The notes under the pieces are model-generated. The model worked only from the letters and a program-made list of their open reading frames with translations, had not been told where the DNA came from and made no database searches. Shown one piece after another: positions 2,386 through 43,290 of a DNA stretch of 44,837 nucleotides (its first letter is position 1; each line of letters starts with the position of its first letter). Made by a program: the position numbers and the translations under genes. Source of the stretch: Acidobacteriota bacterium (GTDB taxonomy: Bacteria; Acidobacteriota; Blastocatellia; Pyrinomonadales; Pyrinomonadaceae); NCBI GenBank assembly GCA_025463135.1, contig JAOAPY010000028.1, forward strand, positions 1 through 44,837, in the 5' to 3' direction.

Positions 2386-3363
2386 TTAGTCCTCATAGAG
2401 TTCCTCCGCGAACCTAATCAGCCCGTCAATATGTTTCTTGAGGAAGTATTTAAAGATATCTGCGTCTTTGGCATTTAACTTGGAAGCTTCAGGGTTTATG
2501 AAGAACTGCCGCAATTCTTCCAGTGGATACTCAATCAAATTCAGGTCATAGTCTATTGAGTCGTGTGCTCCCAATAGGCCTCGTTCCTTAAGAGCGGCCT
2601 TAAAGCTTTCAATAAGCTTAGCGACGAGATCGACATGGATAGTCCCAAATTCTGACGGCTTATTTCCATGAATGGCTTCCCCTATTTTCTCAAAAAAATA
2701 ACCCAATGTTGGCGGAAACACATCAGCTAGCTTTTTCGACTTGAACTCCTCTTTGTGTTTCATTTCCTCTTCCTTAAGCTTCTCAAGTACATCGTTAAGA
2801 GCTGTTTTGATCAGGTTTCTCTGTGACTCGATCAACGGTGGGATATCGACGTGTTGAAATGTGGTGTCGTGGGTTGCGTATGTAGTTAACAGCGTGAACC
2901 CACCTTTGTGCATCGATATTTGCGATATGAAATTGAACGCACTTCCCTTCCCGCCACCTCTCTTCGTGGGATATCCGATACTATTATTGCGGAGTTCACG
3001 TATGGTTTTGATGAGTGGGTCCGGGCAGTACCGGATATCCAGCGATTCCGCTAGATGAGCCACAGCGTCCTGTTGGACGAACATTACTTGAAGTATGCCG
3101 TAGAGGAGTATGTAATTCTCGCCAACCGATTTCGGCTCGGACATGTTCGCATAAGCTTCAAAAGCCCATTCAGTATCCCCGATAACATCAAGCGAACTGC
3201 ATAGCTTGTTCCAAGAAGCAGGGTCTTTCAACAGCATGTGCTGCTTCCTCGGATTGTTAATGTAGAAAGAAACCCATTCCGCGTTCCCTTCAATGAGGAC
3301 ACCCTCAGTCAAGACTACCTGCTCGAACAAAGTAACGCTTTCGAAGCGTGGCGCATGGCGCAC
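2386..3363 (-). CDS. HEPN-like protein of unknown function
   Basis: Hypothetical protein of 325 residues from a GTG start; no in-frame ATG occurs before about residue 43, so the start is uncertain. I recognise the general look of a family in which residues about 118-135 carry an R-N-x-x-x-G-H-P-T-K-R signature typical of HEPN domains. Here it reads IRELRNNSIGYPTKRGGG, with Tyr131 where His is expected, so RNase activity may be lost. A charged helical stretch follows (about 185-215, rich in Glu/Lys), then a C-terminal helical region. No signal peptide or membrane segment is seen. Two GATAA-type dyads lie 30-100 bp upstream, the same sites found at the glycosyltransferase and STAND genes. HEPN proteins are common in defence and toxin systems; the role here is inferred only from context. 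Confidence 0.75.
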   Translation of the reverse strand: MRHAPRFESVTLFEQVVLTEGVLIEGNAEWVSFYINNPRKQHMLLKDPASWNKLCSSLDVIGDTEWAFEAYANMSEPKSVGENYILLYGILQVMFVQQDAVAHLAESLDIRYCPDPLIKTIRELRNNSIGYPTKRGGGKGSAFNFISQISMHKGGFTLLTTYATHDTTFQHVDIPPLIESQRNLIKTALNDVLEKLKEEEMKHKEEFKSKKLADVFPPTLGYFFEKIGEAIHGNKPSEFGTIHVDLVAKLIESFKAALKERGLLGAHDSIDYDLNLIEYPLEELRQFFINPEASKLNAKDADIFKYFLKKHIDGLIRFAEELYED

Positions 3364-3443: not shown

Positions 3444-3460
3444 GATAACTCCTTGTTATC
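3444..3460. promoter_or_regulatory. Perfect dyad GATAAC-N5-GTTATC upstream of the HEPN-like gene
   Basis: Seventeen bases GATAACTCCTTGTTATC, a perfect 6-bp dyad with a 5-base centre. It matches the site at 10310-10326 at 14 of 17 positions in the same orientation. In both places it is followed by TTATCTCGC, 30 bp later here and 51 bp later there. It is either an operator for a shared regulator or a tyrosine-recombinase core-type site. Confidence 0.55.
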
Positions 3461-3528
3461 CAAACGAACGCCTTGAGATTCCAGATTGTATTATCTCGCC
3501 AAACCTGGTCTCCAACAACCACCTCAGT

Positions 3529-3771
3529 TTAAGAGCAAGAGTCTTCCGGACGAAGATCAGCGCACGTCAGACAATAAACAGTGAAGAATCGCTCAGTTCC
3601 ATCACGGGCAATCATGTGGACATTGTTTGCCTCACTTTGAGTCAGCGAGTTGCTATCCACATTTGGGTACTCAACCAACGGTATGTCTGGCCTATACAAA
3701 CAGTCAATCAGTTTCCTCGCTTCTTCTCCATCAGTATGGGCTGGCACGTCAACGCGCCAAGCAGTTCGCAT
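3529..3771 (-). CDS. Possible small protein, 80 residues, unknown
   Basis: The ORF runs from an ATG at 3771 and lies in the 324-bp gap between the HEPN-like gene and the glycosyltransferase. Composition looks protein-like (WRVDVPAHTDGEEARKLIDC near the start) and the C-terminal 15 residues contain two cysteines three apart (YCLTC) and a third near the end. The ribosome-binding site is weak. The dyad at 3789-3805 would lie between this gene and the divergent glycosyltransferase. I do not recognise a family. It may be a chance frame. Confidence 0.35.
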   Translation of the reverse strand: MRTAWRVDVPAHTDGEEARKLIDCLYRPDIPLVEYPNVDSNSLTQSEANNVHMIARDGTERFFTVYCLTCADLRPEDSCS

Positions 3772-3788
3772 TCATCTGTCTCGATACA

Positions 3789-3805
3789 GATAACAGAGAA
3801 TTATC
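3789..3805. promoter_or_regulatory. Dyad GATAA-N7-TTATC abutting the glycosyltransferase start
   Basis: Seventeen bases GATAACAGAGAATTATC ending one base before the ATG at 3806. With five more bases on its left (3784-3805) it is an exact 22-nt reverse complement of 10310-10331, upstream of the STAND gene, and a shared TCTCGA follows outside on both. A protein bound here would cover the translation start and any promoter of a near-leaderless message. The inverted pair could alternatively be recombination core sites. Confidence 0.6.
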
Positions 3806-4918
3806 ATGTCCGTGTCGGTCATCATTCCTTATCACGGCCCAGCATTCTACCTTGATGTTTGCTTGGCTTCTTTGGCCAAGGATCTTAACGACATTGCAGA
3901 AGTTATCGTGGTTTCTAACGGTAACGCCACTTCGGCGGTCGCTCCCTCTAACTACGATGGAGTCCTCAGAATCCTGCAGCACGACGAACCGCTCGGTTAT
4001 CCCGCCGCAATCAACCTGGGTGCCGAGGAGGCACGGGGCGATCTCTTACTATTCTGTGACGCGGATACTTTTTTCCCGCAGGCAGGTTGGATTGCCAAGC
4101 ACCGTCAACTACGCGATGCCCGCCCTGAAATCGGTATTACGAGCTCCAAGCTGCTGAACTACCGTACCGACCGCATTCTTGATTTTGGAATCGGCCGCAC
4201 TCGACTAAACAATTTCCACCCCTACCTAGATTCCCCCAAAACTGACAATCGAGTCCAGAAATCGCGCCGTGTTCAGATGGCATGCTCCGCCGTCATGATG
4301 ATCGAACGAGAACTTTTTCGTAGCCTTGGCGGGTTTGATGAATCACTACGTTACCACTATCAGGACCTCGACCTCTCATTACGCCTCAAGGAGGCGAAAC
4401 GGGAGGTGTGGGTTGTTGGCGACGCCGCTGCCTATCACCGTGGTCAATCATCGAACATTGTTCGAGCGCCTTTTCAAATTGATGACAGGGCGCATTTCAC
4501 TCTAAAAAACTCAGAGCTATTAGAGATTGACTATCCGGAATATCTAAACGAGGCCCTGGCGCCTTACATAAGCCACCTTTCATCGTGTGGTCCATTCGGA
4601 TTGGTGAATCTTTCCACCCTGATCGACCTCAATGAGGTGCTGCCTCTGGTTCAGACTTACACCACCGTTAAGGAACTCTGCCGATGGACACCGCCCAAGC
4701 GTGATCTGGAGTTCATTGCTCTGCCCGACGTGGTTGAGACAAGAGTTCTTCGTTATGGCGGACCACTGTTGATAGTGGTCGATCGTTCTTTCAGCCTTCG
4801 GTTCAATGCGCTTTGGCGATCAGCCCGCGATACCCGAGCCGACCTAGTAATCGATCGCCATGCTAATGCCTATCTCTTTGATGAGATAGTCGAGGCTCAA
4901 TGTGAATCATGTCCGTAG
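3806..4918 (+). CDS. Family 2 glycosyltransferase
   Basis: Cytoplasmic GT-A glycosyltransferase of 370 residues that would transfer a sugar from a nucleotide-sugar donor. MSVSVIIPYHG is the classic first strand, which supports this start. The DxD metal site is D85-A-D87 in FCDADTFF. GGFDES followed by YQDLDLSLRL (about 176-194) is the acceptor/catalytic region of rhamnosyltransferase-like GT2 enzymes. A C-terminal extension of about 130 residues has no motif I recognise. No transmembrane helix is seen. It overlaps the carbamoyltransferase gene by 10 bases, so the two are probably co-translated. A recognisable ribosome-binding site is missing, because a dyad site sits directly before the ATG. 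Donor and acceptor cannot be told from sequence. Confidence 0.9.
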   Translation: MSVSVIIPYHGPAFYLDVCLASLAKDLNDIAEVIVVSNGNATSAVAPSNYDGVLRILQHDEPLGYPAAINLGAEEARGDLLLFCDADTFFPQAGWIAKHRQLRDARPEIGITSSKLLNYRTDRILDFGIGRTRLNNFHPYLDSPKTDNRVQKSRRVQMACSAVMMIERELFRSLGGFDESLRYHYQDLDLSLRLKEAKREVWVVGDAAAYHRGQSSNIVRAPFQIDDRAHFTLKNSELLEIDYPEYLNEALAPYISHLSSCGPFGLVNLSTLIDLNEVLPLVQTYTTVKELCRWTPPKRDLEFIALPDVVETRVLRYGGPLLIVVDRSFSLRFNALWRSARDTRADLVIDRHANAYLFDEIVEAQCESCP

Positions 4919-6870
4919 TATTGGGGCTGCACTTCGGTCATGATGCGAGCGTCGCTGTCGTCATTGATGGTCACCTCTCAACCTTTCTTCAACGCGAACG
5001 TCTTTCCCGGATCAAGCATGCTTATTCACTCGACCGACAAATCGTCGAGTTAGCATTGGATAGGTCTGGCGTCACGGTTAACGAAATCGACGCGGTAGCC
5101 GTCACGTCAACTCAGGGCTGTGAGCCCATCCTTTACAACTTCAAAGGATTTTCTCTGTCCTATGACGCCTCGATGAGGATTGGCCGTCCAGCTTTGCTAG
5201 TAGAGAGCCTTGGCTCCGATCCAGAGGCGGTGATGCGTCTTTGTGTTCCATCTATGGTTAAGCGAGTCTTGGGGACGCCGGCCGATCCCAAAGCTCATCC
5301 GGCTTTCAGAAATTATCTTGCTGAATATGGTTCTATTCCTTACGAACAGCTTCGTTGTTTTCCTTGGCTGGACGCCCATATTGAGATCCCTGAATGGCGC
5401 GATCCGCATGGACTTCGCAACGTTAGTTCCATCAATATTGACTCGTGTGTTGCAGACGAACGGAAGCAACTCGGGTTTCATTATCCGCTACGTGTCACTT
5501 TTGATGGACGCTCGATCGCTGGAGTTCGGGTGGATCACCATCTGGCCCATGCCGCGTCATCGTATTTCCGTTCCGGCTCGCAGCGAGCCATCATTCTCAC
5601 AAATGACGGCTATGGAGGCAGACGGACGGCCTTCTCGAATGGGGGTATCTACCTGGGTCTGGAGAATCGACTGATTGCCGTCGCGCCACACTTCCTGACG
5701 CACGGACATCTTTATGACTACGTAGCTCGCTCAATTGGTCTCGATCCTGTCGGCGGCCCGGGAAAGCTTATGGGGCTCGCGCCATATGGCTCGCCAGTCT
5801 ATTATGACCAACGTTTTGTGGGGGATCCTTACGATCATGAGCGTTTCAAGATCGATGGGACAGCTCAGGGCTGGATCGAATTCGCACGCAATCGTTCGCG
5901 CGAATTCGGGCACGAAGAAAACGATCCGAGTGGTAGTTCTCTGCCGTTCAGCGAGTTTCAAGTGAATCTTGCGGCAAGTACTCAAGCTCTATTCGAAGAG
6001 AGTTGGTTAGCATTGACGCAACTCATGAATGAAACTGTGAGGCGTCAAAATATCCGTGTTGATACGTTGTGCTTGTCGGGAGGAGCGGCGCTCAACTGCC
6101 CTTCGAACAGCCGAGTGTGCAACGAAGGTGGCTTTTCAAGAGTCTTTATTGAGCCCAACTGCGACGACAGTGGGTTGTCGATTGGGGCCGCTCTATGGAT
6201 CCATCACTCATTAATGGACAACGAACTTGAGCGCACAATGTCTTTCGGAATTGCTGAAACCTACAGCAAGCCATATTCGCGATCCGAAATACTCTCTGCC
6301 GCACAAACAAACCGAGAAGTTATAAGAATGGAAGAATGTACCGATTCGTCTCGCAGTGCTGCACAGGATCTCTCTTTAGGTAAGGTCGTTGCTTGGTTCG
6401 AGGGCGGATCTGAGATGGGACCGCGAGCTTTGGGCCATCGTTCGGTTCTTGCGGATCCCAGGCCGCGATTAATGCACCAACTGGTGAACCGTATGAAGGG
6501 TAGAGAATTATGGCGGCCATTTGCCCCAGCGGTTCTGCAAGAAGATGCCTCCGGCTACTTCGACTTTTTGCGCATGCCACCAGATTCTCCGTTCATGCTC
6601 CTAACCACCCAAGTTCTTGATCCTTCCTTAGCGGCAATCACACATGTCGACGGTTCGGCACGGGTGCAGACCGTGACCGTTGAGGGCGGCCGCTTCTACT
6701 CTGTGCTCGCGGCCTTCAAAGACTTGACCGGTCTTCCTGTCCTGTTGAATACGTCAATGAACGGACCAGGAGAACCGATAGTAGAGACTCCAGATCAGGC
6801 CATTCGTTTCCTCACGCAGAGCGGAGTCGACGTTCTCTACCTGGAAGGCTTAAGGATCACGCGTCGTTAA
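4909..6870 (+). CDS. NodU/CmcH/TobZ-type carbamoyltransferase
   Basis: O-carbamoyltransferase of 653 residues using carbamoyl phosphate and ATP to carbamoylate a hydroxyl group. The N-terminal Kae1/ASKHA half begins VLGLHFGHDASVAVV and has the metal-binding VDHHLAHAASSYF (about 207), GPGKLMGLAPYG and CLSGGAALNCPSN motifs. The C-terminal YrdC-like half has FEGGSEMGPRALGHRSVLAD, WRPFAPAVL and LLNTSMNGPGEPIV. The length is normal for NodU-like enzymes. Family members act on Nod factors, cephalosporins, aminoglycosides, surface sugars and, in some phages, hydroxymethylcytosine in DNA. Paired with the glycosyltransferase it most simply decorates a glycan or small molecule. Its stop codon overlaps the stop of the convergent STAND gene (shared TTAA, 6867-6870). 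Confidence 0.93.
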   Translation: MSVVLGLHFGHDASVAVVIDGHLSTFLQRERLSRIKHAYSLDRQIVELALDRSGVTVNEIDAVAVTSTQGCEPILYNFKGFSLSYDASMRIGRPALLVESLGSDPEAVMRLCVPSMVKRVLGTPADPKAHPAFRNYLAEYGSIPYEQLRCFPWLDAHIEIPEWRDPHGLRNVSSINIDSCVADERKQLGFHYPLRVTFDGRSIAGVRVDHHLAHAASSYFRSGSQRAIILTNDGYGGRRTAFSNGGIYLGLENRLIAVAPHFLTHGHLYDYVARSIGLDPVGGPGKLMGLAPYGSPVYYDQRFVGDPYDHERFKIDGTAQGWIEFARNRSREFGHEENDPSGSSLPFSEFQVNLAASTQALFEESWLALTQLMNETVRRQNIRVDTLCLSGGAALNCPSNSRVCNEGGFSRVFIEPNCDDSGLSIGAALWIHHSLMDNELERTMSFGIAETYSKPYSRSEILSAAQTNREVIRMEECTDSSRSAAQDLSLGKVVAWFEGGSEMGPRALGHRSVLADPRPRLMHQLVNRMKGRELWRPFAPAVLQEDASGYFDFLRMPPDSPFMLLTTQVLDPSLAAITHVDGSARVQTVTVEGGRFYSVLAAFKDLTGLPVLLNTSMNGPGEPIVETPDQAIRFLTQSGVDVLYLEGLRITRR

Positions 6871-9800
6871 GGGGACTCGATGGCTTCATTCTGGTATACA
6901 AAGGCTGCTTCTTGGACTCTGCTTCGCTCAAATGCCTTGAACGTTTTATCGGACATAGCGAGAATTTCAAGTATTTCGGCTTGTACGGCGCCATTGGGCA
7001 AAAGGGAAACCTTGGCCTTGTCCAACAACAACCCATATCGTCGACACGTCGCTGCAATGTCCCGAAGAAGCGGACTCTTCCACGCAACTTGCTCTGGCGT
7101 TCGAAGTTTCATAGCCAAGGAATTAATTGCGTCGGAAAACGCTCGAGTCGCTCGTGCATAATCGCCGGTCCGAACGAGAAATTTGGCATCCAAATAGGAA
7201 ATTGCCCAACGCGAGCGATCGGCATGAGATACGTTTGCCCAGTCTCTTGCCTTGATCAGCAATTCATTAACAGCTTTAAGTTTACGCTTGTCACGCCCTG
7301 CTGTAAGCAGGTGAGCCACTGCTTCTAATAAGAGTAGCCTTATTCCCCAGAAGCTGTTTCCTACACGTTCTGCGTGTTTCGCGCCACTCTTGCAGAAGTC
7401 GTAGGCCGTGGTGAAATCGTGGTCATGAATTGCTAATTCCGACCTCACGTAGAAATATCGACAAGGTGCGGGCTCACGCATCGCATGCTTGTTAAGCACG
7501 TAAATGTGCGATCCCTCGTCGAATAGTTTTCGAGCTTCAGGTCTGCGTCGTGGAAGCGCAAACAATATCGCGCCTAGATCGAACAGAGTCTCAACCATCA
7601 TCGACTGATCTCCAATCCTTTTAAATCGTTTCAGTGCCTCGTCGCCCGCGTCCAAGGCATCTTCTATGCGGCCAAAGTTCTTCAGGGTAGCAGCCTTTCG
7701 ATTGAGAATGGCCGCGAGGAAGGCATCACGCCGTTCTCTATTTTCAAATCTGATTTGCCGCAAGTCACCTAGCGCCATCGTTGTCACTTCGAGTGCCTCG
7801 GTGTCATCATATAAAGCTAGGCAAGCATTTACAGTGGCCGTATAGAATTCGAAAAGAGCTTCACCCGGCAGGGATCTGCGAGAAGTCTTTAGTACCCGCT
7901 GTGTAAGAAAATTTCGGAGAGTTCCACCACCTTGCAGAAGCGATTCGAACCTCTGTTGCCAATCTCCAATGAGTCTGACTCCCGTCAGCACAGTGCCGCT
8001 AACTGATCGGCGTGAATCTGTTAGATAGGTTAATAAGACATCTGTGTATTGGCGCCAATAGTCAGGCGTGAGGCCGTTGTGGTCCATATTACGAACAGTA
8101 GCTACTATGGACGCACTTGTAACTGCACCGGCGAAATGACATATAAGGAAGTATTGCTGAAACTTAGTGCTACTAAGGCCGTGTGATTGAAACTTAGACT
8201 TAAGGGCTACAGCAGTGCCCTTTTTCAGCTGGTGGAATTGCTTTCGGAAAAAATTAAAAACTTGGCTATGAAAGAACTGAATGAAGCCTCCACGCTGGCT
8301 CGCCAGTATTCCCACCCGAATCAATAGGTCGATTGCTCTCGCGGTTGCGCCCATTGACAAGAGTTGCTCCCTAGCATCGTTACCTAATAGATAGGCAACT
8401 CGAACGGTTCGGTCTAGTTCGGGCTCCGCAATGCCACTCCTATTGCTGCTCTTCCGAATGCGCTCCCAGCGCAGTCGCAACAGGTCTTGAAGCCCCTTCG
8501 GAATATTATCCAGTCGACTCAGCAGTTGTTCGCCGCCTCTGAGCCTCAAGCGGTCGTCTTCAAGGCTGAGAATCCCCTCGTCGGCCAAGTACATCAAGCT
8601 CTGCCATAGGTTAAGCGGTCTCGGTTGAACCCTTCGTCTAAGCAGGGCCAAAGTTCGCTCATACAGCCGCACAGCTTTCGGCGAGGAATCTCGGCCAGAA
8701 AGTGCTGCGGCAACAAACTCAGCCACGTCATCCCTGTCAAATTCCTTGAGTTCGGAATAATGGACGGTACGACTGCGCAACGTATCCGTACCCCACCCCC
8801 TGAGTTTCGCTGCTAATTCGTTGATCCTGCCTTCTGGGGGGATGAAGTCACTGTTGATCGACAGAACTAATATTATGTTCTTGTTCGACAAGTGTTGAAG
8901 CTGAAGTATTAGCGATTCCACAAACTCTGCGAATCGATCATTTGTGAACTGAAGGTTGTCGATAAGTAATATGGTGGGCTTCTTCGATAAGAGAGAAATG
9001 ACTCCGGAAACTACGTCATCGATGTGGTCCCAAAAGGCAAAGCTAGGATCATAAAGGGCGCGCGCAAGGATCGAGCTATTGGAGAGCGCTTCCTCAGAGT
9101 AATGATCTTGTTCAGCGACGCCCCTTAACCGAGGTAACTCACTCACATCGGCCACAATATCGCGCACAACATTTTCAGCGGATTTTGCGTCCTCGAATTC
9201 CGGGTCATACAAGTGGCAACGAAAACCCTCTTCCAAACCGACTTTCGCGATTTCCAACATTAGACGGCTTTTGCCGGTACCACTTGCGCCTTCGGCGACG
9301 ATGACAACTGGTTTTCTACGATTCCGCGTGAAGCTACTCGCCTGGTCAAGAATCTGTCGGTGTCCTTTGCCGACAACGTCGATTTGAAAGAGGTGGGACA
9401 CATTGACAGTTCCGGTCTCAATCGGTCGATCAGGTATCCCCTCTCCGATGGCCCTTACAGTCGGGAGACTAAGCCGCTCACCGGCTTCACACGGTTGTAT
9501 GATTAAGGATGTCTGAACAATGCCAGCGCCAGGAATTCTTAGTGTTACCGAACTGGCTCGTCTGTGTCCTCCAAAGGAGACTAGACGTAGCCGTGAATCC
9601 AATTTCTCTTTCATCAACTCTAGTCTGATTTCGGCTGCGGTGCTTGAACTTAAGTTCCTTAAGGAAAAGTCAATGCGAATGAGCCCGTAACGAACGGCTT
9701 GGATCGGCCGTTTGCTGTGAGCCCCAGTGATGTAGGGAACGAGGCTAGTATCTATCGCCTCAGTGAGTGCGTCCGGCGTAAGTGAGTAGCGCAATTGCAG

Positions 9801-10268
9801 CCCTGAGAGAGAGGCTTGAGGGCAGGACTGGCTCGGAAAGAAAGCTCTGTAGAGGCCGGTTCCCAAGACAGCGTTATCTAAGACCGAACCATCCAGTGCA
9901 ACAATTCTTTTGCCTGAGGCTTTCTGAAAAGCAGCGAGGTGACGAAGGGCGTTATCATTCAATTGACTACGAGACACCACAATGACAGTGTGGGGATCTT
10001 CAATAATCGCCATCACCAAAGTTGGCGAAACGACATAAACCGATAGCCGGTCGCTGTAAGCTTTGCACTCTGCCCACAACCATCCATGCCCATCGCGTTT
10101 TTCGAAGTCCCTCGACCCGTCCCGAGTCGCTTGTGTGGACTTCCAACCTCGGCCGTAAAGAGACTCGAGCAACTTTAGCGAAAGATTCTCAAACTTTTTC
10201 CCGTCGTATCGGCCGTCCGGCAAAAGGAAGGATTTTCGCCAAGAGGCTTCGGGAATGATGCGGGCCAT
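6867..10268 (-). CDS. Mrr-like nuclease / STAND NTPase / repeat protein (Avs-like)
   Basis: Large cytoplasmic protein of 1133 residues with the layout of antiviral STAND proteins. Residues about 20-130 look like a PD-(D/E)xK Mrr-type nuclease: helix FENLSLKLLESLYG, then D50/D54 in TRDGSRDFEK and E67-C-K69 in WAECKAYSD. A beta-rich stretch follows (about 180-290). The P-loop NTPase has Walker A EGASGTGKSR (about 326-335) and Walker B TILLIDNLQ (about 432-440, Asp437). The remaining 500 residues are helical and TPR-like (about 840-1100). Avs proteins sense phage proteins through such repeats and then cleave DNA; that is family knowledge, and which Avs type this is, if any, cannot be decided here. 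The start at ATG 10268 sits 41 bp from the dyad at 10310-10326. The protein converges on the carbamoyltransferase with overlapping stops. Confidence 0.85.
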   Translation of the reverse strand: MARIIPEASWRKSFLLPDGRYDGKKFENLSLKLLESLYGRGWKSTQATRDGSRDFEKRDGHGWLWAECKAYSDRLSVYVVSPTLVMAIIEDPHTVIVVSRSQLNDNALRHLAAFQKASGKRIVALDGSVLDNAVLGTGLYRAFFPSQSCPQASLSGLQLRYSLTPDALTEAIDTSLVPYITGAHSKRPIQAVRYGLIRIDFSLRNLSSSTAAEIRLELMKEKLDSRLRLVSFGGHRRASSVTLRIPGAGIVQTSLIIQPCEAGERLSLPTVRAIGEGIPDRPIETGTVNVSHLFQIDVVGKGHRQILDQASSFTRNRRKPVVIVAEGASGTGKSRLMLEIAKVGLEEGFRCHLYDPEFEDAKSAENVVRDIVADVSELPRLRGVAEQDHYSEEALSNSSILARALYDPSFAFWDHIDDVVSGVISLLSKKPTILLIDNLQFTNDRFAEFVESLILQLQHLSNKNIILVLSINSDFIPPEGRINELAAKLRGWGTDTLRSRTVHYSELKEFDRDDVAEFVAAALSGRDSSPKAVRLYERTLALLRRRVQPRPLNLWQSLMYLADEGILSLEDDRLRLRGGEQLLSRLDNIPKGLQDLLRLRWERIRKSSNRSGIAEPELDRTVRVAYLLGNDAREQLLSMGATARAIDLLIRVGILASQRGGFIQFFHSQVFNFFRKQFHQLKKGTAVALKSKFQSHGLSSTKFQQYFLICHFAGAVTSASIVATVRNMDHNGLTPDYWRQYTDVLLTYLTDSRRSVSGTVLTGVRLIGDWQQRFESLLQGGGTLRNFLTQRVLKTSRRSLPGEALFEFYTATVNACLALYDDTEALEVTTMALGDLRQIRFENRERRDAFLAAILNRKAATLKNFGRIEDALDAGDEALKRFKRIGDQSMMVETLFDLGAILFALPRRRPEARKLFDEGSHIYVLNKHAMREPAPCRYFYVRSELAIHDHDFTTAYDFCKSGAKHAERVGNSFWGIRLLLLEAVAHLLTAGRDKRKLKAVNELLIKARDWANVSHADRSRWAISYLDAKFLVRTGDYARATRAFSDAINSLAMKLRTPEQVAWKSPLLRDIAATCRRYGLLLDKAKVSLLPNGAVQAEILEILAMSDKTFKAFERSRVQEAAFVYQNEAIESP

Positions 10269-10309
10269 ATCAGTATGGTGAGTCGCCGACCTATGATGAC
10301 CTCATTAGC

Positions 10310-10326
10310 GATAATTCTCTGTTATC
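10310..10326. promoter_or_regulatory. Dyad GATAA-N7-TTATC upstream of the STAND gene
   Basis: Seventeen bases GATAATTCTCTGTTATC. The 22-nt block 10310-10331 is the exact reverse complement of 3784-3805. The site lies 42 bp upstream of the STAND start codon, where a repressor or activator could act. It is also a direct-orientation relative of the 3444-3460 site. Confidence 0.6.
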
Positions 10327-10577
10327 TGTATTCGAGAGAAAGCCTAGAAACGTCAAAGACTGCGTTCTGGGGAGCAATTATCTCGCTAAAACCCTCGTTA
10401 GAACAACCCTTTAGTGCAAGTGAAGTCTTTTTCTGAGATTTCGCCGCCTGTTTAGGTGGAATCACAATGATACGGTTTGTACCGATTTTCCTTGAAAACT
10501 CTACAACTCGTAACTAAACTCGGCAGCGCTTTCAAGACCTACCGCCTAATAAGTTAACACGCTCTACAAGTTGCGCT

Positions 10578-27065: not shown

Positions 27066-27140
27066 GTGCCTCCATTACCTCAAGGTCAATCATTTTAGCT
27101 GGGAGGTAATTTGCGCTGGACAGTCCCCGGACAGCATGGA

Positions 27141-27230
27141 GTCAGTACCGGGAGCGGTAGCGACCGGGTCACCCTTGCGATTTCAGGACTCTTGCACAGC
27201 GACCCGGTCGCTACCGCTCCCGGTACTGAC
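27141..27230. repeat. REPIN/MITE-like hairpin, copy 1 (perfect 30-bp arms)
   Basis: Arms 27141-27170 and 27201-27230 are perfect 30-bp reverse complements, with a 30-base loop. The arm begins GTCAGTACCGGGAGCGGTAG. The same outer GTCAGTACC and central GCGGTAGCG are found in the copies at 30.3 and 34.3 kb. It lies between the epimerase and aldehyde dehydrogenase genes. No transposase or RAYT gene is near. Confidence 0.92.
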
Positions 27231-27256
27231 ATCATCCTCAAATAGATCGCTGCCGG

Positions 27257-30186: not shown

Positions 30187-30606
30187 TGCACGTTTACCTC
30201 GTTCTAGAGTTTCAATTCGCAAGGTCAGTGTCACAACCGAGACGTAAGAAGCAAGCAATATGCTTGCCAAATACTAATGCAGTTTGAAATCGACCAGCCG
30301 CGTTGGCAGGGTAGATAACTCGAACTGTCGTGTCATGAGGTCAGTACCACCGCGCGGTAGCGGGTGGGTCTCGATCCATCAGCATTCTCGTTATCCGGCG
30401 ACCGACGGACCCACCCGCTACCGCGCGTTGGTACTGACTTCATGACACGGAGTAGTCACGACATTCTTGCCGGAATTGCCGGGCAGGATTGAAGTGATGC
30501 CGGGAATTCGTTCCGACACTCTACGGAGTGATTGACTTGATCAGACTCGGTTGCGCCTCACTTACTCTCGCAATCCTCATGTTCGACATTGGCAGGTCTC
30601 TTGCCT
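30187..30606. other. Intergenic region carrying hairpin copy 2
   Basis: 420 bp between divergent genes. It holds the hairpin at 30330-30448 and a TTGCCGGAATTGCCGG repeat (30467-30482). No promoter of consensus quality is visible for either neighbour. Confidence 0.5.
30330..30448. repeat. REPIN/MITE-like hairpin, copy 2 (41-bp arms)
   Basis: Arms 30330-30370 and 30408-30448 match with two mismatches in 41 and a 37-base loop. Outer bases GTGTCATGAGGTCAGTACC, inner GCGGTAGCGGGTGGGTC. It shares both blocks with copy 3 at 34304-34427. Confidence 0.92.
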
Positions 30607-31062
30607 ATGTCAGAGGCGATGAACGTAGGATACCTTACCGCTATTGCTGCTCTAGCTGGCGCAGGGCTCGGCGGATTAACCTCATTCGCAAGCTCATGGA
30701 CCACCCTGCACGCACAGATGAAGGCTCAGCGGCTTGCGAACAGTAAATCGACACGGCAAGAACTCTACAAGCAGTTCATTGATGAAGCGTCGAGAACTTA
30801 CGCAGACGCGCTAGTGCATGACACGCTGGACGTATCCCGCTTGGTTGGCATTTATTCACTCGTCAGCAGAATGCGCGTTCTCTCGTCTGAAAAAGTGATC
30901 CACAGCGCCTCTAGTATTGCCATACTTGTCACCGACACCTACTTCCAGCCCAATAAGACGCCTACTGAATTGCAGGCGATGATGCATGACGGCGGCGTGG
31001 ATCCGTTACGAGATTTTAGCGAAGTTTGCCGCAATGAATTAGAAAGCGATCTCCTTGCCTAA
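30607..31062 (+). CDS. Small membrane-anchored protein, unknown
   Basis: Protein of 151 residues from ATG 30607 (MSEAMNVGYLTAIAALAGAG). One N-terminal transmembrane helix (about 8-26) is followed by a soluble helical domain with QELYKQFIDEASRTYADAL. Proteins with this layout are common hypotheticals in soil bacteria; no function is known to me. The C-terminal part has no catalytic motif. A TTG six codons upstream is an alternative start. Confidence 0.7.
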   Translation: MSEAMNVGYLTAIAALAGAGLGGLTSFASSWTTLHAQMKAQRLANSKSTRQELYKQFIDEASRTYADALVHDTLDVSRLVGIYSLVSRMRVLSSEKVIHSASSIAILVTDTYFQPNKTPTELQAMMHDGGVDPLRDFSEVCRNELESDLLA

Positions 31063-31258
31063 GCATGCGAGGCATTAAAGGGAATGTTGCCGGATTTGCC
31101 GGACACGCCTGGGCAGTTCTCTAAGACTTAACCGGCACTTTCATCAGGTTAAGGTCACTTGCAGACTGAAACTGCCCGCATTCTCTCACCGAAATAGTTG
31201 TGCCGATCTTGGCCGAATCATTGCAGGTCTGACGGGAAAGAAGAGGTGGCCCGAGGTA

Positions 31259-32620
31259 ATGAGAAGCAAGGTCGTGCACAATCTAAAGAGCTATTTTGCA
31301 GCACTGTCTTTCTTGCTGGCTACACCGTTGGCCCTGTGGTGTCAACAGAGCGCTCCAACTGCGGCTGACGTATTGAGTCTTGATCAGGCCATTAATATCG
31401 CCCTGCAGAAGAATCGTTCCCTCGAAAATGCGCGCCTTAACGTCGAAAAGGACGCAGACGAAATTCGAAGCATACGCACGTCGCGTCTTCCATCCACACA
31501 TTTCTACGCGCTGGTCTCGCAAGACATGGTCAAATACGAAACTAACCTGACGAATCCCTTCACCGGCGTCTTTCCTGGGATAGGACCATTCTTCTCACTG
31601 AGCACGCCCAGACGGCCAACGGCGATATTCGCTGCTCAGGTTCTGCAACCGATCTCGCAGCAGTACCGGATCGGTCTCGCTATCGATGTCGTGAAGTTGG
31701 CTCGCGACGAAGAGCAGCAGAAGTTCCGTTCGCAGGAGCAGGCACTCATCAACAACGTCAAGCAGACTTACTACGGAATATTGCAAAGTGAAAGCGCTCT
31801 GGAAAGTGTGCGTGATGAAGTCAAATCTTACCGCGAACTTGATCGAGTGACCGGCGAGTTTGTTCTGCAACAAGTTGTCTTGAAGTCCGATCATTTGCAA
31901 GTTCAAACTCGATTGGCAAAGGCGGAATACGAAGCTCTCGATCTGACTAATCGTCTGTCGACGCAGAAAGAGCAATTGAACAAGCTCCTGGGGCGGGAGG
32001 TGCTTACGGATTTCAGCGTTGGTCCTGTGGCGGAGGCGACAGTCTTTGAGTATGACATTTCAGCCTCGCGCCGTCGTGCACTAGACCAACGGCCTGAACT
32101 CAGTGCAGCGCGACTCAAGATCGAGCAGGCCAAGCTTGATAAACGTCTGAAGAAATCAGAGTACATCCCTGATGTGAGTGTGGGGTTCACCTCATTGAGC
32201 CTGCGAAACTTTGACGAAGTAGTGCCAAAGAATGTGGCGTCCGTCGGAGTTGTGATGAGTTGGGAGCCCTTCGACTGGGGGCGCAAGAAACGTCAATTGG
32301 CTGAGAAGATCAAGACAATCGAGCAGGCCGAGAATGCCTTGCAGGAAACCGAAGACCAAATCCTCATTGAGGTCGGCGATAAGTTCCGCCGTTTACAACA
32401 AACCCAACAGGCGTTGCGAGTCGCACGCCTTAGTCAGGATGCTGAGCGCGAAGCTCTCCGCGTCACTCAGGGCAGGTACCGATTCGAGACTGCTCTGTTA
32501 ACGGAAGTGCTGCAATCTCAAGCTAAGTTGGCAGATGCAAACAATCAATATCAACAAGCATTGCTGTCTTTCTGGACCGCTAAAGCTGAATTGGAAAGAG
32601 CGTTGGGCCAAGACAAGTGA
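31259..32620 (+). CDS. TolC-family outer membrane efflux protein
   Basis: Outer-membrane channel of a tripartite efflux system, 453 residues. A signal peptide (about 1-28, ending LATPLALWC) precedes two outer-membrane-efflux repeats with long coiled-coil helices: LSLDQAINIALQKNRSLENA begins the first, LDQRPELSAARLKIEQAKLD the second. GSREVL-type turns and Gln/Glu/Lys-rich helices fit a TolC barrel-tunnel. The adaptor and pump genes follow on the same strand, separated by repeat-bearing gaps of 319 and 232 bp. The transported compound is unknown. Confidence 0.92.
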   Translation: MRSKVVHNLKSYFAALSFLLATPLALWCQQSAPTAADVLSLDQAINIALQKNRSLENARLNVEKDADEIRSIRTSRLPSTHFYALVSQDMVKYETNLTNPFTGVFPGIGPFFSLSTPRRPTAIFAAQVLQPISQQYRIGLAIDVVKLARDEEQQKFRSQEQALINNVKQTYYGILQSESALESVRDEVKSYRELDRVTGEFVLQQVVLKSDHLQVQTRLAKAEYEALDLTNRLSTQKEQLNKLLGREVLTDFSVGPVAEATVFEYDISASRRRALDQRPELSAARLKIEQAKLDKRLKKSEYIPDVSVGFTSLSLRNFDEVVPKNVASVGVVMSWEPFDWGRKKRQLAEKIKTIEQAENALQETEDQILIEVGDKFRRLQQTQQALRVARLSQDAEREALRVTQGRYRFETALLTEVLQSQAKLADANNQYQQALLSFWTAKAELERALGQDK

Positions 32621-32939
32621 AAGAGGGATGCCGGTGAACTATCCAGTGTGGTGTCTCGGAAGTTCTAGCAATAAGTCTGATGGTCTTCCATCGGTCTAGT
32701 TCTCGGTCCCGAGGGGACCCAATGTTTATAGAACCAAGGGCCAAAAAGACTTTGAAGCTCCAGAGGAGCGAAATATGTGGCTTTGCTACGAGGCACATTG
32801 CGCTCCTCCGGAGCTAGAAACTCTTGGCGCGAACTGAAGCTATAGACATTTGGCCGCTCTGCGGCCAGGCACAAATTGTGGTTAGAACTCTAGAGTCCGC
32901 ACACCAGGCTGAATCCGAAAGCACAATCGACGAGGACAG
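32621..32939. repeat. Palindromic repeats in the efflux gene gap
   Basis: 319 bp without a gene. It holds imperfect palindromes: GCTCCAGAGGAGCGAAATAT against CACATTGCGCTCCTCCGGAGC (near 32757-32815), a GGTCCCGAGGGGACC stem (near 32705-32720), and a GGCCGCTCTGCGGCC stem (near 32853-32867). The motif GGGACCCAATGTTTATAGA resembles the repeats at 38.2 kb. They are probably a REP-like family placed between co-oriented genes. Confidence 0.65.
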
Positions 32940-34235
32940 ATGAAGAGAACATACAAAGCGTGGATAGTGTGCGGAACTCTCTTCGCGCTGGTCCTGGTAA
33001 TGGCTTGCCAGTCCAAGCAAGTACAAAAACCGCCAGTACCCGTAAAAGTCGCGACGGTAGAGCTGCATGCTGCCAACAGCGGAGCGCGGTATTCGGCGAC
33101 GATTATCCCGCGCACACAGGTCGAACTGGCTTTCAAGGTGGACGGCTACGTTGAGGCGCTGCAAAAGGTCCGTGGCGTCGACGGCCAAATGCGAGACCTT
33201 CAGGAAGGCGATCCGATTGTCGCAGGAGCGGTGCTGGCGCGCGTGCGCCAGAGCGATTACCAGGTCAAAGTCAAAGAAGCCGAATCTCAGGCCTCGGAGG
33301 CGAGATCGGCTATTGACGCCAGCAGAGCACAGTATCAGGAAGCGCTCTCCGCCATCGAATCGAGCAAGGCTCAACTCGCCGATGCTGAGGCAACCTATGA
33401 AAAAGCAAAACTCGATTTTGATCGCGCCCAAAACCTATTTGCCAGCCAGAGCCTGACCAAAGCCAACTACGATGCGGCGAAGGCACAGTTCGAACAGGCG
33501 AGTGCCAAGGTCGCCGCTGCTCGCTCACAAGTTGGCATGGTCCAAGCCAGGGCCGATTCTGCCAAATCGCAGATCGAAGTAATAAAGGCCAGGTCAACCG
33601 GGGCGCAGGCCGTCGTGCATGAGAAGTCAATTCCCCTCCAGGACACCGCGCTGAGGGCGCCGTTGAAAGGATTGGTACTGCAAAAATCGATCGAGAGGGG
33701 GACATTGGTCTCGCCCGGCAAAACAGGTTTCGTGGTCGCGGACACTTCTTCAGTCAAGGCGGCTTTCGGCGTGGCCGATATTGCAGTGCCGGAGATTAAA
33801 TTGGGAAGTAGGTTGAGTGTTGAGACTGAAACCATGCCCGGCACGGAATTCGACGGGCAGATCACTTCTGTATTTCCCGCCGCCGATCCCAAGAGCAGGG
33901 TCTTTAGTGTCGAGGTCACAATCCCGAACCCGAAAGGCCTGCTCCGACCAGGCATGATCGTCTCGCTCAGAGTAGGACGGTCGGAGGCTGTGCAAGCGCA
34001 GCCGGTCGTGCCGTTGAATGCGATCGTGAAATCCCCGACCGACGCGAATGGCTATGCCGTTTTCGTGATGACGGAGCTAGGCGGACGCCAGATCGCAAGA
34101 GTTCGCGATGTGAAACTGGGCGAAACTTACGGCAACACGATTGCCGTGACCGAGGGAGTGAAGGAGGGCGACCGCGTCATCACGACAGGCGTCACTCTGG
34201 TTAGGGATGGCGAAGCGGTGAAATTGATTCCTTGA
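32940..34235 (+). CDS. RND efflux periplasmic adaptor (HlyD/MFP family lipoprotein)
   Basis: Membrane-fusion protein of 431 residues linking the pump to TolC. The N-terminal signal ends in a lipobox-like LVMAC (Cys23), so it is probably a lipoprotein. ELAFKVDGYVEAL and GDPIVAGAVLARV form the lipoyl domain. A long coiled-coil hairpin (about 100-205, Ala/Glu/Lys/Gln-rich) follows, then beta-barrel and membrane-proximal domains with LRAPLKGLVLQKSIERGTLV and NPKGLLRPGMIVSLRV. It is the middle gene of the efflux set. Confidence 0.93.
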   Translation: MKRTYKAWIVCGTLFALVLVMACQSKQVQKPPVPVKVATVELHAANSGARYSATIIPRTQVELAFKVDGYVEALQKVRGVDGQMRDLQEGDPIVAGAVLARVRQSDYQVKVKEAESQASEARSAIDASRAQYQEALSAIESSKAQLADAEATYEKAKLDFDRAQNLFASQSLTKANYDAAKAQFEQASAKVAAARSQVGMVQARADSAKSQIEVIKARSTGAQAVVHEKSIPLQDTALRAPLKGLVLQKSIERGTLVSPGKTGFVVADTSSVKAAFGVADIAVPEIKLGSRLSVETETMPGTEFDGQITSVFPAADPKSRVFSVEVTIPNPKGLLRPGMIVSLRVGRSEAVQAQPVVPLNAIVKSPTDANGYAVFVMTELGGRQIARVRDVKLGETYGNTIAVTEGVKEGDRVITTGVTLVRDGEAVKLIP

Positions 34236-34303
34236 TTCCAGATCAGCATTGCACGAAAAGTCGGGATACCACCCACGGCAGAGACTACTCATGTTGCAGT
34301 GAG

Positions 34304-34427
34304 ATGAAGTCAGTACCACCTCGCGGTAGCGGGTGGGTCGGCTGGCGGAAAATGACATCGCTCGGGCAAAACGAATTGACTTTAGAGCCGGAACCCACCC
34401 GCTACCGCGAGGTGGTACTGACCTCAT
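34304..34427. repeat. REPIN/MITE-like hairpin, copy 3 (35-bp arms)
   Basis: Arms 34304-34338 and 34393-34427 match with one mismatch in 35 and a 54-base loop. Outer ATGAAGTCAGTACC, inner GCGGTAGCGGGTGGGT, as in copy 2. It sits in the 232-bp gap between the adaptor and RND pump genes, where its stem could also affect read-through. Confidence 0.92.
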
Positions 34428-34467
34428 GACTCTGTAGTTCCGGTTTTGAGACAGTCTGCGAGAAATC

Positions 34468-43086: not shown

Positions 43087-43290
43087 TCATGAGATCTTGG
43101 TAATGGCCAGCGCGGCGATGGAAACGATCAGGAAAGGGTTAATAATGGTTCGGCTTATCATCCGTTCGATGAGTTCCGCGCGTGATAAACGTTCTCCGTT
43201 TAGGTAGACGTCGGAGTATGTATCGTCGGAGTATGTATCGTCGGAGTATGTATCGTCAACGACTCGCTTGGAGCCGTCGTGAATGTACAC
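43087..43290 (-). CDS. Possible small membrane protein with DDTYS repeats
   Basis: The ORF starts at a GTG (43290) and encodes 67 residues. Three DDTYS units come from the 15-bp tandem repeat; then LNGERLSRAELIERMISR and a C-terminal hydrophobic helix (TIINPFLIVSIAALAIT). The frame stays open far upstream to about 43563 without a standard start codon, and reads protein-like (VWVSTPAILWTANRPQERGL), so this may be the tail of a decayed longer gene. Family unknown. Confidence 0.35.
   Translation of the reverse strand: MYIHDGSKRVVDDTYSDDTYSDDTYSDVYLNGERLSRAELIERMISRTIINPFLIVSIAALAITKIS
43211..43255. repeat. 15-bp tandem repeat, three perfect copies
   Basis: TCGGAGTATGTATCG is repeated three times without spacers. 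The 15-bp unit keeps any reading frame, and on the minus strand it encodes DDTYS. Such repeats often vary in copy number between strains. Confidence 0.9.

Follow-up and report, generated by a model that had tools for sequence, protein, structure and literature searches.

Several invertible DNA systems have been described that resemble the locus considered here, a 6.5-kb gene block that is bracketed by an inverted repeat and adjoined by the gene of an Xer-like tyrosine recombinase in an Acidobacteriota bacterium (Blastocatellia; Pyrinomonadales; Pyrinomonadaceae; assembly GCA_025463135.1). The window, as the whole analysed stretch is called below, comprises 44,837 nucleotides (nt) of contig JAOAPY010000028.1 (positions 1 to 44,837). 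In phage Mu, the G segment inverts and has alternative convergent genes at its two ends; the gene of its recombinase, Gin, adjoins it. The systems that follow are given as described in excerpts of the papers cited. In Ureaplasma parvum, inversion at short inverted repeats alternates two opposed neighbour genes (UU172/UU171 and mba/UU376), and XerC/RipX-type recombinases are suspected (PMC3047005). The dif/pdif modules of Acinetobacter lie between inversely oriented Xer-type sites (...ATAA-spacer-TTAT...), and their recombination, including inversion, tracks spacer identity (PMC13141974). An Xer-like recombinase inverts silent genes onto one active promoter in the Vpma and vsp loci of Mycoplasma agalactiae and M. 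bovis (PMC3047005, PMC11868660). In the cod locus of Streptococcus pneumoniae, the adjacent tyrosine recombinase PsrA inverts several repeat pairs that have pair-specific sequences (PMC7096588), and inversion by PinQ at StfE2 in E. coli is tied to phage resistance (PMC12529663).

In the window, positions 3784-3805 (site B) and 10310-10331 (site C) are exact reverse complements over 22 nt, and each contains the dyad GATAA-N7-TTATC with an identical 7-base centre. An earlier reading made from the letters alone (the sequence-only reading) had noticed this repeat and had likened the dyads to core sites of a tyrosine recombinase that would flip the block, with control of both transcription units by one regulator as the alternative; coordinates and centre hold on re-checking, and a third dyad at 3444-3460 (site A) had escaped that reading. 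Read toward the gene that each precedes, the dyads of the window have the form GATAA-C-purines-TTATC. From comparison of the sequences described below, it is highly probable that the neighbouring recombinase flips the block at B and C and that the sites serve an expression switch.

The window holds three GATAA-N7-TTATC dyads, compared with 0.02 on average over 100 shuffles, and when it was simulated 40 times with an order-1 Markov model, no exact inverted repeat of at least 20 nt appeared; a chance repeat is ruled out by these counts. Across the entire genome (6.48 Mb) there are six such dyads, three of them in the window. Therefore, the dyad is local, and a genome-wide regulator motif is ruled out.

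Matched centres and start codons

Nine genomes contain 13 pairs of inverted dyads with both sites on one contig, and each pair encloses two gene units. Neighbouring sites were taken as pairs whatever their centres, and site A and two pairs split over contigs (in genomes G092 and G489) were left out of the centre tests; the comparison of 13 pairs replaces an earlier one of nine. The 7-bp centre is identical inside the pair in 13/13, compared with at most eight matches when the same 26 centres were re-paired at random (200,000 trials), and the centres differ between pairs in all four genomes with two pairs. Some of the pairs were retrieved with patterns in which certain centre letters are fixed; this raises overall likeness, not within-pair identity together with between-pair difference. 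The outermost arm base carries a single mismatch in seven of the 13 pairs. Matching centres are required for strand exchange by a tyrosine recombinase, not for an operator. As a common regulator would constrain the arms and would not make the centres pairwise identical, recombination is favoured over the one-regulator alternative of the sequence-only reading.

In most cases the sites also adjoin a start codon. By our own count, 22 of the 26 sites lie at most 15 nt from, or overlap, the start of the inner-side open reading frame (ORF); the exceptions are window site C (41 nt), the right site of L152 block 1 (225 nt), the left site of L152 block 2 (38 nt) and the left site of L046. Unlike in other blocks, a PHP-domain gene inside the L046 block in G039:C72 (L046:389-1318, minus strand), beside the left site, points toward that site. 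At each of 29 sites, at least five of the last six centre bases are purines, so the purine-rich centre appears placed and composed as expected of a ribosome-binding site. This position would suit translational control, with the dyads, present at both block ends, acting as operators or leader hairpins (stem GAUAA/UUAUC, purine-rich loop) under one regulator and without recombination. Such an explanation is very unlikely, as it does not account for centres that are identical within a pair yet different among the pairs of a genome, for the linked recombinase, for the strict inversion of the sites or for block orientations that are opposite in different species.

Related recombinases and their sites

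The sequence-only reading had proposed that related genomes be searched for the same dyad beside homologous recombinases, and such sites are found over a wide range of identity. A scan of genome contigs for recombinase relatives gave 11 loci. Among full-length relatives at 61-74% identity, six of seven have the dyad within 3 kb, and L015-L020 have it at all six loci: as inverted pairs on one contig in L017, L018, L019 and L020, and as a single site at a contig end in L015 (dyad 2.75 kb away) and L016, each with a same-centre counterpart on a different contig of its genome (G092:C10, G489:C628). No dyad was found at the fragment L022 or at L021 and L023-L025, which are distant relatives. G487 encodes a second recombinase (L063) that is accompanied by a separate inverted pair, and a degenerate recombinase in G511, with two internal stops, has one dyad nearby. 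L019 is catalogued as a Chitinophagaceae bin. In viral collections, 59 loci hold relatives of the recombinase, one of them at 65% (L075, considered below); dyad scans of the other 58 gave isolated one-mismatch look-alikes in four loci and nothing more.

At 47% identity, G341 has an inverted pair with the centre CTAGAGA and one mismatch in one arm. G356 (two pairs), G248 and G387 came from a phylum-wide pattern search, and their recombinases are only about 30% identical to that of the window. In these four genomes the recombinase points toward the block, and the site contains its stop codon in G356 and G248. The two recombinases of G356 are 98.6% identical over 289 amino acids (aa), and each precedes its own pair, with the centres CTGAGGA and CTAGGAA. 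The pattern GATAACNNNGANTTATC was matched in 12 of 119 family genomes, nine of which had isolated matches only, with no recombinase in the stretches examined. For GATAACTNNNNATTATC, 14 of 396 phylum genomes matched; a recombinase adjoins in all five that have pairs. G308 and G042 have isolated matches, with no recombinase in the stretches examined. Judging from these loci, the window repeat exemplifies a putative family of inversion modules that is seen mostly in Acidobacteria.

The recombinase gene of the window starts 280 bp past the right repeat, as the sequence-only reading had placed it, and its product passes both PF00589 and PF02899. Its closest models are those of XerC (TIGR02224, 221 bits against a cut-off of 335) and XerD (TIGR02225, 213 against 330), and its best relatives in the PDB are XerA/XerD. 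Residues R171, K195, H264, R267, H290 and Y299 (window numbering), which we take to be the catalytic set of tyrosine recombinases, are invariant in the window and six relatives at 30-69% identity, three of which are only 30-31% identical. Membership of two known groups was also considered. The missed NCBIfam equivalog cut-offs rule out a housekeeping XerC or XerD. An integron is ruled out by a score of 97 bits against a cut-off of 265 (TIGR02249) and by sites that are short dyads, not of attC length; attC sites are long structures.

Block contents, orientation and expression

In eight of the 13 blocks, a STAND/AAA-TPR or WD40 protein stands opposite another unit. The partner unit is a family 2 glycosyltransferase (GT2) with a carbamoyltransferase in the window, two glycosyltransferase ORFs in L019 and L046, an ATP-grasp protein in L017 block 2 and L063, a methyltransferase with ATP-grasp in L153 and an ORF without Pfam match in L152 block 1; in G341, a methyltransferase with a TauD-like protein stands opposite a WD40 protein. 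The window STAND gave no BLASTP match below 0.01 to the STANDs of L019, L046, L017, L063, L153 and L152, and thus the likeness is claimed as one of architecture only, not as homology. In the other five blocks, a lipid-type enzyme stands opposite a membrane protein: UbiA in L017 block 1, L018 and L020, a FAD/lycopene-cyclase-like protein in L154, and a CDP-alcohol phosphatidyltransferase in L152 block 2. Among L017, L018 and L020, identity is 49-61% for the UbiA proteins and 57-61% for the membrane proteins. The latter (L018:8872-9822, minus strand; L017:3618-4565 and L020:7837-8850, plus strand) have no Pfam match. For an AlphaFold model of such a protein (predicted local distance difference test, pLDDT, 82), 16 of the top 18 VIA-align rows are insect gustatory/olfactory receptors matched over near full length; the best Z of 11.4 (root-mean-square deviation 6.4) is of a kind common for helical proteins, and the Foldseek E is only 0.08.

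The gene proximal to the recombinase is the membrane protein in L018 and UbiA in L020, that is, homologous blocks are flipped relative to each other. The STAND or WD40 gene is likewise proximal in the window and L153, and distal in L019, L017 block 2, L063, G341 and L152 block 1. Both orientations therefore occur in nature, in different species. They could instead be independent insertions if the blocks were mobile cassettes like the dif modules of Acinetobacter, with end sites for capture and loss. The contents are diverse and patchy (the STAND query is matched in one of 119 family genomes), blocks can stand in tandem (L017, L152), and dif modules likewise have inversely oriented Xer sites whose spacers must match (PMC13141974, in the excerpt available). 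However, end sites that are flush with start codons and carry a ribosome-binding site suit expression switching, not cargo transport, block-specific centres would block free exchange, and no empty site turned up, though none was searched for. We regard cassettes as an unlikely explanation.

An invertible expression switch would operate as follows. B and C would be core sites of the adjacent Xer-like recombinase, and recombination between them would invert the 6.5-kb block. As B lies directly before the GT2 start and C just upstream of the STAND gene, inversion would swap the unit beside the recombinase-side flank, which has promoter-like sequence pointing into the block. In the assembled orientation, the STAND gene would be expressed, with the GT2-carbamoyltransferase unit silent or only weakly active; a flip would exchange these states. 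We infer that the block flips reversibly in this strain and that expression alternates. At loci whose recombinase points to the block, recombinase and proximal gene could be co-transcribed. Among window-type loci, TTGNNN-N16-18-NATAAT occurs at most 100 bp outside the site in six of 10 recombinase/promoter-side flanks versus none of nine distal flanks (Fisher 0.011; the labels of win_A, L017_1R and L046_L were assigned by flank resemblance). Together with the option of co-transcription, these matches suggest a fixed outside promoter with an exchangeable first gene.

Further signs of inversion come from the assemblies, where branch points from mixed orientations would give contig ends at dyads. 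Five contig ends in three genomes lie at most 130 bp from a dyad, against 0.26 expected (Poisson 8e-6, calculated once the ends were known). G092:C10 ends one base beyond the site, the L016 contig begins within it, and the start of G489:C628 is 97 nt inside; in L015, whose contig name contains k141, the site has its outer edge at base 141. L153 starts at the outer edge of the repeat, and its first 21 nt are identical to the 3' end of the gene for the recombinase across the block (AQLLEMSDN and stop), so that its start reads as the recombinase 3' end joined via the site to the far-end gene.

Several points weigh against the switch. The labelling of flanks by resemblance is one; single promoter matches are weak and not significant individually, and L018 and L063 have no promoter-like match on the recombinase side. 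Site C is not flush with the STAND start. The identity of 21 nt in L153 could come from a longer true repeat. When G092 and G489 were searched for further contigs carrying the L015 or C628 junction, the query contig alone was recovered, and the window's own assembly has one copy of each junction and no flipped one. The recombinase of L020 is short of about 30 N-terminal residues. In G126, a recombinase 32% identical to that of the window has the end of its gene overlapped by a single dyad of opposite sense (L158:9039-9055), with no partner within two mismatches. L075, a 65% relative, is on a contig labelled as viral, and the 16.7 kb examined of its 45.9 kb contain no dyad. The neighbours of this recombinase (L075:7726-8700) are a ParA-like protein and an ATPase, and L075 possibly hints at a mobile-element origin of the recombinase.

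Site A is not expected to recombine with B or C because its centre differs. A partner sought leftwards gave one look-alike with four to five mismatches on the wrong strand. The outer flanks of A and C align with a score of 57, against a shuffle mean of 35.8 and maximum of 54 (60 shuffles). An IS481-type transposase gene (589-1650) lies within positions 260-1926, flanked by imperfect inverted repeats 39 and 69 nt long, and this element may have removed the partner of A. The 325-aa protein downstream of A is probably the remnant of a second unit; its fold prediction (pLDDT 41) gave no usable model. The unpaired A near the IS481-type element suggests decay of one unit, and no inversion is seen in this genome's assembly; the repeat might then be a relic of past inversion or duplication without present function. 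This is extremely improbable given that arms and centres are conserved in 13 pairs across recombinases only about 30% identical and that the catalytic residues are intact.

The features of the block and its flanks are collected in Table 1. The sequence-only reading had named the bracketed genes, and its GT2 and carbamoyltransferase calls stand above the Pfam cut-offs; the STAND call depends on matches below them, and a D-x(n)-ECK stretch is visible at the N-terminus. The GT2 gene overlaps the carbamoyltransferase gene, and this left unit and the STAND-like gene are convergent with overlapping stop codons. No relatives of the window STAND were found among 118 other family genomes at 1e-10 or in a pattern-based scan of genome contigs, and a PDB sequence search gave nothing better than E 0.058. 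PADLOC at 0.01 gave no match to a known defence system for five window proteins. An 81-aa ORF (3529-3771, minus strand) between A and B starts 12 nt from the 22-nt repeat. Elsewhere in the window, a family of ~42-nt inverted hairpin repeats (GACCCACCCGCTACCGCG...) surrounds efflux-type genes at 30313-34445, with a shorter relative at 27133-27238, and a 15-bp tandem repeat (CGTCGGAGTATGTAT) has three copies at 43209-43257.

Table 1. Candidate sites, promoter-like sequences and genes at the 6.5-kb block, in window positions
Feature	Position	Strand	Remarks
325-aa protein	2386..3363	-	No Pfam match; downstream of site A
Third site A	3444..3460	-	GATAACAAGGAGTTATC; centre CAAGGAG, unlike CAGAGAA of B and C; no partner found
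Promoter-like TTGTTG-N17-GATAAT	3490..3518	-	Outside A, reads leftwards; flank aligns with that of C
Left recombination site B (candidate)	3784..3805	+	Core 3789-3805, GATAA-CAGAGAA-TTATC, plus outer ATACA; GT2 start codon directly after
Family 2 glycosyltransferase (GT2)	3806..4918	+	PF00535, 1.6e-14, passes Pfam cut-off; first gene, left end of block
Carbamoyltransferase (NodU/CmcH type)	4909..6870	+	PF16861, 1.1e-53, and PF02543, 1.3e-30, above Pfam cut-offs; second gene of left unit
STAND-like protein, 1133 aa	6867..10268	-	Weak N-terminal Mrr_cat, AAA_16 and TPR_12, all below Pfam cut-offs; right-end gene
Right recombination site C (candidate)	10310..10331	-	Core 10310-10326; inverted relative to B, same centre; STAND start codon 41 nt on
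Promoter-like TTGTTC-N18-GATAAT	10377..10406	-	Outside C, reads into block; consensus match only
Xer-like tyrosine recombinase, 324 aa	10612..11586	+	PF00589 and PF02899 above cut-off; transcribed away from block

The gene contents suggest that surface or product chemistry alternates with an immune-type sensor, and this purpose is proposed with less confidence than the switch itself. We give an even chance to a wider proposal, in which an either/or switch is widespread in Acidobacteria, so that a biosynthetic or envelope-modifying enzyme unit or a STAND, WD40 or receptor-like membrane protein, facing each other from sites flush with start codons, is expressed, never both, and the 7-bp centre is both a ribosome-binding site and an address that keeps switches independent under one enzyme. 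If this is true, a large and little-studied soil phylum would possess dedicated phase-variation machinery, a STAND-type gene (elsewhere in bacteria often immune) and envelope-type enzymes would be expressed mutually exclusively, and one recombination site would do three jobs, as crossover address, ribosome-binding site and gene boundary. As the site grammar is searchable (GATAAC-NNNNNN-TTATC, inverted, with matching centres and a start codon next), any genome can be screened for candidate switches.

Comparison with known inversion systems

As in tyrosine-recombinase inversion systems, a complete catalytic set is encoded beside the segment, and the inverted core sites share the same strand-exchange region. 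The Mu G segment has a serine recombinase and carries tail-fibre genes of a phage, whereas the recombinase here is a tyrosine recombinase. PinQ, in the excerpt available, is also a serine recombinase, acting on cryptic-prophage tail genes without a STAND gene (PMC12529663). In Vpma and vsp, as excerpted, paralogous lipoprotein families are switched, in contrast to two unrelated units per block, and cod/PsrA shuffles hsdS coding segments, whereas whole genes are predicted to be swapped here behind an outside promoter.

The available text of a phase-variation review (PMC11868660) and of a genome-wide inversion survey (PMC5903667, in which 'Acidobacteri' does not occur) does not describe the arrangement, and no description was found in the literature searched, which consisted of open-licence papers only and is weak evidence of absence. 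Acinetobacter dif sites have a 6-bp spacer (ATAA-N6-TTATG), distinct 11-bp XerC/XerD arms and the host XerC/XerD (PMC13141974, as excerpted), whereas the sites here have the form ATAA-N7-TTAT, with symmetrical 5-bp arms GATAA/TTATC, a presumably dedicated adjacent recombinase and positions flush with start codons; the 6-bp spacer and ~11-nt XerC/XerD arms that define a dif module are thus absent from window-type sites. The nearest published architecture found is UU172/UU171 of Ureaplasma, in which two genes are likewise alternated by inversion; there, according to the excerpt, the repeat lies in coding sequence or spacer and the N-termini of surface antigens are swapped (PMC3047005). Here, in contrast, the site appears flush with the start codon and to hold the ribosome-binding site, and whole unrelated units would alternate. 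DNA inversion itself is already known; it is the arrangement that departs from the known systems.

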